Source: Thermoanaerobaculum aquaticum
GTDB taxonomy: Bacteria > Acidobacteriota > Thermoanaerobaculia > Thermoanaerobaculales > Thermoanaerobaculaceae
Direction: 5' to 3'
NCBI RefSeq assembly: GCF_000687145.1
Contig: NZ_JMFG01000020.1
Location: forward strand, 198,940 to 262,939
DNA length: 64,000 nt
Below, piece by piece: positions 60,589 to 64,000 of the stretch; position 1 is the stretch's first letter, and each line of letters starts with the position of its first letter. Position numbers and translations under genes: made by a program. The notes under the pieces were generated by a model. It saw only the letters and a list, made by a program, of their open reading frames with translations. It did not search any database and was not told the DNA's origin.

Positions 60589-60603
60589 GGCCGCGGAGGG
60601 AGC

Positions 60604-63600
60604 ATGGAGGGTTTTTCCGAAAACGACCGTCTTGCCGTCACAGCACTGCGGGTGCTGGCCATTGACCAGGTGGAAAAAGCCAAATCCGGACACCCCGGGC
60701 TGCCGCTGGGGGCCGCGCCCATGGCTTACGTTTTGTTTTCCCGCTTCCTGCGCTTTGACCCGAAAGCCCCAGGATGGCCCAACCGTGACCGCTTCGTGCT
60801 TTCCGCCGGTCACGGCTCGGCTTTGCTGTACGCGCTCCTGCACCTTTTTGGCTACCCCCTGCCCCTGGAGGAGCTCCAGCGCTTCCGGCAGTGGGGCTCC
60901 AAAACCCCCGGCCACCCCGAGCACGGCCTCACCCCCGGAGTGGAGTGCACCACCGGTCCGCTGGGCCAGGGCCTGGCCATGGCGGTGGGGATGGCGTTAG
61001 CGGAAAGGCACCTGAGCGCCCGTTTCAACCGCGACGGCTTTCCTGTGGTGGACCACCGCACCTTTGTGTTGGCTTCCGACGGCGACCTCATGGAGGGTAT
61101 TTCCCACGAGGCTGCAGCGCTCGCCGGCCATTTGCGCCTGGGTAAGCTGGTGGTGCTGTACGACGACAACCGCATCACCATCGAAGGGCCCACCTCGCTG
61201 GCCTGGTCCGAAAACGTGGAAGCCCGCTTTTCCGCCTACGGCTGGCTCACCCTGGCGGTGGAAGACGGCAACGACCTGGAAGCCCTTGCCGCTGCCCTGG
61301 AGCAGGCCACCTCCCAGGAAGAGCGACCCGTGCTCATCCGAGTGCGCACCCACATTGGCTTTGGCGCCCCCACCAAGCAGGACACCGCCGAGGTGCACGG
61401 GGCTCCCTTAGGCCCCGAAGAGCACCGCGCCACCAGGGAAAACCTGGGCTGGCCCCACCAGGAGCTCTTCTTTGTGCCGGAGGAAATCCGCCAGCACTTT
61501 GCGGAGCTCGCGCGGAAACGTGCGGCTTGCCACCAAAAATGGCAGAGCCTCTGGCAGGAGTACGAGCAGCGCTTCCCGGAGCTGGCCTCTGAGCTTTCCC
61601 GCCGGCTTTCCGGCAAGCTTCCGCCGGGGTGGGATGAGCTTTCGCTTTCGTTCCCACCGGAAAAGCCCCTGGCCGCCAGGGAAGCCTCGGGAAAAACCCT
61701 CAACGCCCTGGCCGCCAAAATCCCCGAGCTTTTGGGCGGCTCTGCCGATCTTGCCCCTTCCAACAACACGCTTTTGGCCGGTGAAAGCGACGTAGCCCCC
61801 GGCGCCTACAGCGGCCGCAACCTGCGCTTTGGCGTGCGGGAGCACGCCATGGCCGCCATGGCCAACGGCCTGGCGCTCCACGGGGGCTTGCGGCCCTACG
61901 TGGCCACGTTTTTGGTGTTTTCTGACTACCTGCGCCCCGCCTTGCGCCTTTCCGCCCTGCAGGAGCTGCCGGTGGTTTACGTCTTCACCCACGATTCCAT
62001 TGGCCTGGGGGAAGACGGCCCCACCCACCAGCCGGTGGAGCACCTCCCCAGCTTGCGGGCCATCCCCAACCTGGAGGTTTGGCGACCGGCCGACGCCCAC
62101 GAAACCGTGGCTTGCTGGCGCCAAGCGCTCCGCCGCACCCACGGCCCCACCGCCCTCATCCTCACCCGGCAAAAGCTGCCGGTGCTGCCGCCGCCTCCTC
62201 CGGGAGCGGTGGAACGGGGGGCGTTTATCCGCGAGGAAGCGGAAGGGGGCGTGCCGCAGGTGGTGCTTTGGGCTTCCGGCTCGGAGGTGCACGTTGCCTT
62301 AGGTGCCCGCAAGCTCTTGCAGGCCCAGGGGGTCCCCACCCGGGCGGTTTCCGCCCCCTGCCTGGAGGTTTTTTCCAGCCAGGACCCGGCCTATCGCAAA
62401 GCGGTGCAAGGTCCCGAAAACGCCCTGCAGGTGGCGGTGGAAGCGGCCCGGGGGGTGAGCTGGCACGCCCTTTTGGGCCCCAACGCTTTGGTGGTTTCTC
62501 AAGAGCGCTTTGGTGCTTCGGCTCCGGGGGACGAGCTCTTCCGCCAATTCGGGTTTACGCCCGAGGCCGTGACCCAGCGGGTCCTGGCGGCCCTGGCCTC
62601 CCGCAGACCCACGCCGCTGGCGCCGGTGGGTGGTTTTGCCGCCGATGCGGCAGCCGAGGCCGCGCGGGAACAACTGCAACGAGAAGCCCTCCCCCGGCTT
62701 TTTGCCCGGGATTGCCGCCTTTGGGGCGAAGCCCACGCGGCCACCGTGGCCCAGCGCCTGGGTTGGCTGGACCTCCCGGCCCGCAGCCGGCACGAGCTGC
62801 CCCAGCTTGCAGTTCTGGTGAACCGCTGGGCCGCAGGGGGCCTGGATACCCTGGTGCTTCTGGGCATGGGGGGTTCCAGCCTGGCCCCGCAGGTGCTTCG
62901 GGAAATGGGCGGCAGCCCCTCCGGGCGCGAGCTTCTGCTGCTGGACACCACCGACCCGGTGCGGGTGAACGGTGCGCTGGAGTCCCTGGACCCGGCAAAA
63001 ACCGCGGTGCTGTCGGTTTCAAAATCCGGCACCACCGTGGAAACCGCCAGTTTGCTGGAAATCTTCTGGGATCGCTGGACGAAAAGCGGCTTGCCCCAGC
63101 CGGGGGCTCACTTTGCCGCCCTCACCGAGCCGCAAACGCCTTTGGCGCAGCTTGGCCGGGAGCGGCAGTTTGCAGCGGTGCTCCCCCACCCGGTGGACGT
63201 AGGCGGGCGGTTTTCCGCCCTTTCGGCGGTGGGGCTCTTGCCGGCCCTGTGGTTGGGCTTGCCCACCGAAGAGCTGCTCCAGCAGGCAGCCAACACCCTT
63301 GCCCCCCACACCCACCACCCCGCCCTGGAGCTGGCCGCCGCCCTCGCCGCCGCCTCCCGCGACGGCTGGGGTCGCCTGGTGCTTTGGCCGGAGGCCCGTT
63401 TCCGGCCTTTTGCCCTGTGGCTGGAGCAGCTGGTGGCGGAGTCCACAGGTAAAGACGGCAAGGGTTTGCTGCCGGTGGCCCCGCCCAGCCCGGTAGGACT
63501 TGACCAGCTTCCCGCCACCCTGCACCTGGGGTTGGGCACGGCCCAGCCGCCTTTTCCGGGGCTTGCCTGGCCGGTGGATGCCCACCGCCTGGGCGAGGCC

Positions 63601-64000
63601 TTTGCCTTTTGGGAGCTCACCACCGCGCTTGTGGGCTGCCTCCTGGGTGTGAACCCCTTCGACGAACCCAACGTGGGGGAAGCCAAGAGGCAAGCGCGGG
63701 CCGCGTTGTCCCAGGGTGTGCCGGAGCTTCCACCCACCCCCCAAGCCGGCCAACGTTTGGCGGGGTTCCTTGAAGCCTGTTCCCGGGAAGAGGCGGTGGT
63801 GTTTTGCGCGTACCTTCCGGAAACCCCGGAAGTGGCTCAGGCCCTGGATGAGCTCACCGCAAGCTGGCAGGAGAAGCTGCAAACCACCGTCAGCTGGACC
63901 TTCGGTCCCCGTTACCTGCACTCCACCGGGCAGCTGCACAAGGGAGGTCCGAAAAAGCTCTTCTGCGTCGTGCTCACCGCCCCCAACCCCGGCGATCTCC
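60604..64000 (+). CDS. Transketolase fused to phosphoglucose isomerase (right end cut off)
   Basis: One open frame of at least 1132 residues runs off the edge. Residues ~1-660 are a full transketolase: [26 protein letters not shown], thiamine diphosphate motif around [12 protein letters not shown] (~158-168), [26 protein letters not shown] and [18 protein letters not shown], ending QRVLAALAS. Residues ~690-1132 are a phosphoglucose isomerase domain: [13 protein letters not shown] (~750), [14 protein letters not shown] (~805), [17 protein letters not shown] (~866), [20 protein letters not shown] and [11 protein letters not shown]. That half resembles the PGI half of bifunctional transaldolase/PGI, but no transaldolase domain is present. 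It would link the two ends of the pentose phosphate pathway. GGAGGG precedes the ATG. Confidence 0.9.

Follow-up and report, generated by a model that had tools for sequence, protein, structure and literature searches.

A single gene of Thermoanaerobaculum aquaticum joins a transketolase to a phosphoglucose isomerase (PGI) in one open frame. We consider it very probable that the product is a genuine two-headed enzyme, that the fusion had a single origin through the loss of a transaldolase gene (tal), and that the two heads have fructose 6-phosphate in common. The bifunctionality, a prediction from sequence, is well supported.

In the window, by which we mean the whole stretch of 64,000 nucleotides that was analysed, the frame is open and stop-free from 60604 to 64000 (open-frame reading). 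The original prediction had given these positions; the start stands, but 64000 is the window edge, and the gene runs 149 bases more. The C-terminus was retrieved from the whole assembly, as had been recommended, and the frame closes there at a TAG, giving a complete protein of 1181 residues. The main features are the following.

L002:4544-8089 (= G000:C20:259543-263088), + strand: complete fused tkt-pgi gene (whole assembly)
60595..60600, + strand: strong Shine-Dalgarno sequence GGAGGG, 3 bases 5' of the ATG (read from the sequence)
60604..62583, + strand: transketolase part, residues 1-660, with ThDP-binding, pyrimidine-binding and C-terminal domains (Pfam, NCBIfam)
62584..62679, + strand: linker region, residues 661-692, of which 668-678 are disordered in the AF2 model of the SKYB76 orthologue
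62680..64000, + strand, up to the window edge: phosphoglucose isomerase part, residues 693-1181 (PF00342; AF2 model of the SKYB76 domain; Foldseek)
G000:C20:262940-263088, + strand, outside the window: final 49 residues of the PGI and the TAG (whole assembly)

The layout that had been proposed, with transketolase landmarks over residues ~1-660, a short linker and then a PGI, was borne out by Pfam and TIGR00232; the Pfam domains follow one another as Transketolase_N (6e-140), Transket_pyr (9e-57), Transketolase_C_1 (2e-28) and PGI (8e-15). The linker, about 10-30 residues long in the T. aquaticum fusion, is stop-free and in frame in the family members read, and its sequence is poorly conserved. 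Two ways in which the halves might prove to be separate had been named beforehand, a stop or frameshift in the linker and a second protein made from a ribosome-binding site there. Neither was found: the junction is in frame in independent genomes, and the in-frame starts at residues 640-720 have no Shine-Dalgarno sequence (the best reaches 3/6 matches), which rules out two separate proteins via an internal start.

The genome is a draft of 68 contigs and 2,660,928 bases at ~96% completeness, obtained from short reads, and the type strain, a hot-spring organism, is strictly anaerobic and ferments proteinaceous compounds (PMC4056298). A short-read draft could in principle owe such a gene to an assembly or sequencing error that joined two genes. 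The chance of this is negligible, since the in-frame junction is repeated in independent genomes, from an isolate as well as from MAGs; chance or assembly error is excluded because nine other family genomes carry fused frames. The unbroken frame through both domains was thereby confirmed, and the search for the same architecture in related genomes, suggested at the outset, was answered by the same nine genomes. It should be mentioned separately that just past the window (L002:13586-15646) lie two genes resembling, by inspection, those of nitric oxide reductase NorB and NorC, in a strictly anaerobic host for which there is no evidence that it reduces nitrate.

Within the family, fused frames closed at both ends were found in 10 of 17 genomes (G000, G113, G115, G117, G118, G121, G122, G123, G127 and G128). 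The frame crosses the junction before the contig ends in G120 and G124, and only the PGI part is present, at a contig end, in G114 and G119. No recognisable copy was found in G116, G125 and G126 (completeness 82%, 91% and 74%, respectively), and separate tkt and pgi genes were seen in none of the 17. The fused frame of G118 (L040:7524-10931) begins at transketolase residue 65, without the first 64, its start being missing or frameshifted in the MAG.

Other transketolase-PGI fusions were found neither in the class, which was searched whole (149 genomes), nor in the match list for 396 genomes drawn from the phylum, nor in the 80 best named genome hits as ranked by the PGI half; the viral contigs searched held no relatives. 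Long open frames in G042, G018 and G004 were rejected as further fusions, being Tal-Pgi or overlapping separate frames, as were G301 and G341, where a stop lies between the genes.

The fused transketolase domains form one clade (support 100/100) and so do the fused PGI domains (SH-aLRT 100), which points to one fusion event. Across the family, the upstream neighbours are a divergent lpxA-fabZ-lpxD-ompH-like cluster (orthology computed, names given by reading the sequences). Identity within the family is 65-87% for the transketolase and falls to 48% for the PGI. Between ordinary species pairs, pN/pS is about 0.15-0.32 for the transketolase and about 0.25-0.41 for the PGI, which indicates that purifying selection acts on each half.

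The N-terminal part is, as far as sequence can show it, a genuine and full-length transketolase with all cofactor and active-site columns present. TIGR00232 scores 852 bits against an equivalog cut-off of 682 and is covered from profile position 3 to 649 of 654. The closest solved structure is Thermus thermophilus transketolase 2e6k (E 6e-240). The columns of H30, H70, H104, D159, E164, N189, H265, E413, H475 and R522, which we take to be the residues binding ThDP and substrate, are invariant in an alignment of 16 sequences, whose numbering is used here.

The sequence likewise identifies the C-terminal part as a Tal-Pgi-type phosphoglucose isomerase, in which the five catalytic residues (K, R, E, K, H) are present. 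Elsewhere, PGIs of this type occur free-standing or form the C-terminal half of Tal-Pgi. PF00342 scores 54.8 bits against the Pfam gathering cut-off of 22. The assignment to the PGI type known from Tal-Pgi held up: NF007080, the Tal-Pgi model, matches the PGI part alone (residues 679-959) and scores 278 bits there, below its cut-off of 712. The catalytic residues are listed below with their presumed counterparts in rabbit PGI numbering (K210, R272, E357, H388 and K518); those of H388 and K518 were assigned from the matches of the swapped segments treated further on.

63019..63036, + strand: motif SKSGTT, residues 806-811; K807 corresponds to rabbit K210 and is K in 60/60 relatives and 10/11 fusions
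63202..63210, + strand: motif GGR, residues 867-869; R869 corresponds to rabbit R272 and is R in 60/60 relatives
63439..63441, + strand: catalytic base E946 in ESTGK; corresponds to rabbit E357 and is E in 60/60 relatives
63685..63687, + strand: K1028, ahead of the H388 segment; corresponds to rabbit K518 and is K in 58/60 relatives
63919..63948, + strand: motif at residues 1106-1115; H1106 corresponds to rabbit H388 and is H in 60/60 relatives

Models were obtained for the orthologue of Thermoanaerobaculum sp. SKYB76. Its PGI domain alone reached a pLDDT of 90.4 and a pTM of 0.92, and the whole protein a pLDDT of 90.5 and a pTM of 0.65, with a pLDDT below 50 for linker residues 668-678. The AF2 model of this protein is one of two confident domains on a disordered linker, whose mutual placement is not predicted. 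In Foldseek, the best matches of the PGI model were all PGIs, with a poor sequential superposition (TM 0.46-0.60 on the query).

The PGI half might instead be a degenerate or regulatory domain of the transketolase and no isomerase at all. This would agree with the state of one genome, G113, whose fused PGI has lost the equivalents of K210, R272, E357, K518 and H388, and with the E that stands in all fusions at the position of rabbit Q511, which could alter activity. Yet 20 of 60 relatives have an E there as well, the five catalytic residues are intact in all ten ordinary fusions (G113 apart), and no other PGI of known type was found in the T. aquaticum draft, so that we regard this alternative as very improbable. 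An isomerase remains our reading of the C-terminal half.

The G113 copy deserves a closer description. In its fused PGI (L049:7435-9024, contig C46), K is replaced by F, R by H, E by H, K by H and H by L in the order just given, while the frame is still open. The domain, whose identity is low (37-39%), sits on a long branch (1.13), and the transketolase of the same chain on an ordinary one (0.29). We rejected an independent fusion in G113 as the source of this low identity, since both halves fall in the same clades as the others and the neighbours are the same; the low identity is attributed to decay. Judged by these substitutions, the fused PGI of G113 looks dead, a putative pseudo-enzyme domain still in frame on a transketolase. 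G113 is also the one family genome where a Tal-Pgi was found, with intact motifs and on another contig (L048). This is the pattern expected if a working fused PGI had become dispensable there, and G113 may serve as a natural control.

The original prediction had read PGI landmarks in this half; they are present, with the amendment that the C-terminal half departs from the canonical PGI order. When a profile of 60 such domains was compared with Thermus PGI 1zzg, three blocks matched out of order: profile 36-279 fell on chain positions 39-274, profile 451-543 on 278-381, and profile 347-377 on 384-414. Thermotoga 2q8n gave the same order of blocks. The E values of the profile comparison were 8e-4 for the piece with H388 and 7e-9 for that with K518. 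Searched alone against all PDB sequences, the C-terminal piece had 1zzg as its sole match (chain 277-380, E 5.8e-5). In 18 canonical PGIs of the phylum, the K518 piece lies close to the C-terminus (iE 1e-3 to 1e-10), and the H388 piece, with individually weak matches (iE at least 0.3), mostly lies upstream of it. Across the Tal-Pgi-type clade examined, by contrast with the canonical order of H388 before K518, the helix bearing K518 comes first (alignment A3, 60 relatives; window 63439-63948). The second SIS domain is thus apparently permuted, as a common trait of the Tal-Pgi-type PGIs compared. If confirmed, the swap would account for the failure of general PGI models to match more than the first half, and would represent a permutation that left the active site of a core glycolytic enzyme intact. 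No description of a permuted PGI was found in the open-access literature that was searched.

What the fusion could do depends on what else the genome encodes. PGI interconverts fructose 6-phosphate and glucose 6-phosphate, and transketolase turns fructose 6-phosphate and glyceraldehyde 3-phosphate into xylulose 5-phosphate and erythrose 4-phosphate. We searched the draft genome of T. aquaticum (68 contigs, ~96% complete) for separate tal, pgi and gnd genes, as had been proposed. The fusion is the only PF00342 match, and neither a PF10432 PGI nor a cupin PGI was found in this draft. There are four Transket_pyr matches, among which the fusion is the only true transketolase; the other three proteins are, by inspection, of the 2-oxoacid dehydrogenase type. 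The sole PF00923 match is a small separate transaldolase gene on another contig, C2, and neither gnd nor zwf (G6PD) was found in the same ~96% complete draft. The small transaldolase (L003, G000 contig C2, 1453-2160, minus strand) adjoins PdxS/PdxT-like and gyrA-like genes, named by reading the translations; PdxS/PdxT is a PLP synthase that consumes ribose 5-phosphate.

Given that zwf and gnd were not found, the fusion is placed at the fructose-6-phosphate branch. Both heads would draw on one fructose 6-phosphate pool: the fusion would supply glucose 6-phosphate and, together with the small transaldolase, pentose phosphates by the non-oxidative route. Since the residues are intact and no other PGI or transketolase was recognised, this one chain is probably the source of both activities. 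Fructose 6-phosphate would then be put to two uses on a single chain, in an organism whose draft genome yielded no oxidative pentose phosphate pathway.

The situation differs in the sister genus g6: G119, G120, G121, G124 and G125 carry a canonical PGI as well (E about 1e-215 to 1e-225), and a fused PGI is thus not the only PGI in every member of the family. In G120 and G121, this canonical PGI is on one contig with an additional, larger transaldolase.

As regards the origin of the fusion, relatives possess tkt-tal-pgi operons, whose genes often overlap, or a tkt followed by a Tal-Pgi fusion. In another Acidobacteriota family (G301 and G341; L146 and L147), tkt adjoins pgi with no tal between them. 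In G301 (L146:9214-9223), tkt and pgi are even in the same frame, and TGA-GCC separates the last tkt codon from the GTG of pgi. Given that this layout exists, the fused state is one small step further. We propose that a tkt-tal-pgi operon lost its tal, that tkt then read through into pgi, and that this happened once, in the family ancestor. From this operon series, such a single origin by tal loss and read-through is the most likely course. The living relatives would then form a fusion series, from the operon to genes adjacent in frame with one stop, to the fused gene, and to the fused gene with one half decayed.

It had been proposed that transketolase takes the place of transaldolase. As a description of the architecture this stands; as history, a deletion of tal from the operon is likelier than a swap. 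A replacement of transaldolase by transketolase within a Tal-Pgi gene has in its favour that Tal-Pgi is common in the class and present within the family in G113. However, the Tal-Pgi of G113 is elsewhere in the PGI tree, both layouts seen in relatives have tkt directly upstream of tal, so that a deletion of tal from either gives the fusion, and a tkt-pgi pair without tal occurs in family f34. We therefore hold replacement to be unlikely and retain tal loss from an operon. In the tree, the fused PGI groups with actinobacterial operon genes (moderate support, 84), apart from the pgi of the sister family, and the neighbours of the fusion clade in the transketolase tree are left without resolution. 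Since the nearest PGI relatives are not the sister-family genes, the ancestral operon may have been acquired by lateral transfer.

The immediate benefit of the fusion is probably a fixed one-to-one expression of the two enzymes and their co-location at the branch point. The fusion may also be a neutral read-through of operon neighbours, in which both domains work with no kinetic or structural consequence, channelling or special assembly. The linker is indeed short, flexible and poorly conserved, and tkt and pgi are already neighbours in relatives; nevertheless the frame has been kept family-wide over a long divergence without being split again, even in G113 with its seemingly dead PGI half, which shows retention and not benefit. 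We give the neutral course somewhat less than an even chance. Transketolase and PGI are each dimeric, their active sites lying where the subunits meet, and for this reason a single chain could force a higher-order assembly, a closed double dimer or a chain, which would pass fructose 6-phosphate from PGI to transketolase. We find it doubtful that such an assembly exists in combination with a PGI of a widespread lineage whose second domain was permuted with its function kept. If true, this hand-over would be the only route from hexose to pentose phosphates recognised in the T. aquaticum genome. Fixed expression and co-location remain the benefit that we favour.

No description of a transketolase-PGI fusion was found in the open-access literature that was searched. 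The fusion represents an architecture of central metabolism conserved through a bacterial family, and it is testable because this family includes a cultured type strain. Over residues 1-660, it resembles bacterial transketolases (TIGR00232; Thermus thermophilus 2e6k) in full length, whereas it adds a 500-residue PGI extension that solved transketolases lack (chains of at most 711 residues among the matches listed). With canonical PGIs (PF00342; Thermus 1zzg, Bdellovibrio 7nss) it has in common the first SIS domain, SKSGTT, GGR, ESxGK and the H388 and K518 equivalents; in the C-terminal half, however, canonical enzymes have the H388 segment and then the K518 segment, and the fusion PGI has the reverse. 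The tkt-tal-pgi operons of Acidobacteriota, Actinomycetota, Nitrospirota and others have their genes in the same order as the domains of the fusion, but encode separate proteins and hold between them a transaldolase gene that the fusion is without.

The Tal-Pgi of Gluconobacter oxydans has been described as a bifunctional enzyme (Sugiyama et al. 2003, pmid 14730129, as relayed by PMC4378227 and PMC7092467). Like the fusion, Tal-Pgi (NF007080) has the same PGI type at its C-terminus, joined to an enzyme of the non-oxidative pentose phosphate pathway that uses fructose 6-phosphate; its partner is transaldolase, whereas that of the fusion is transketolase. Membership in Tal-Pgi itself was ruled out, since the Pfam and NCBIfam search found no PF00923 transaldolase domain in the protein and its NF007080 score lies below the cut-off. 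By these sequence criteria, Tal-Pgi is the closest known kind, and the fusion is likewise a pentose-phosphate enzyme joined to a PGI, with a different partner.
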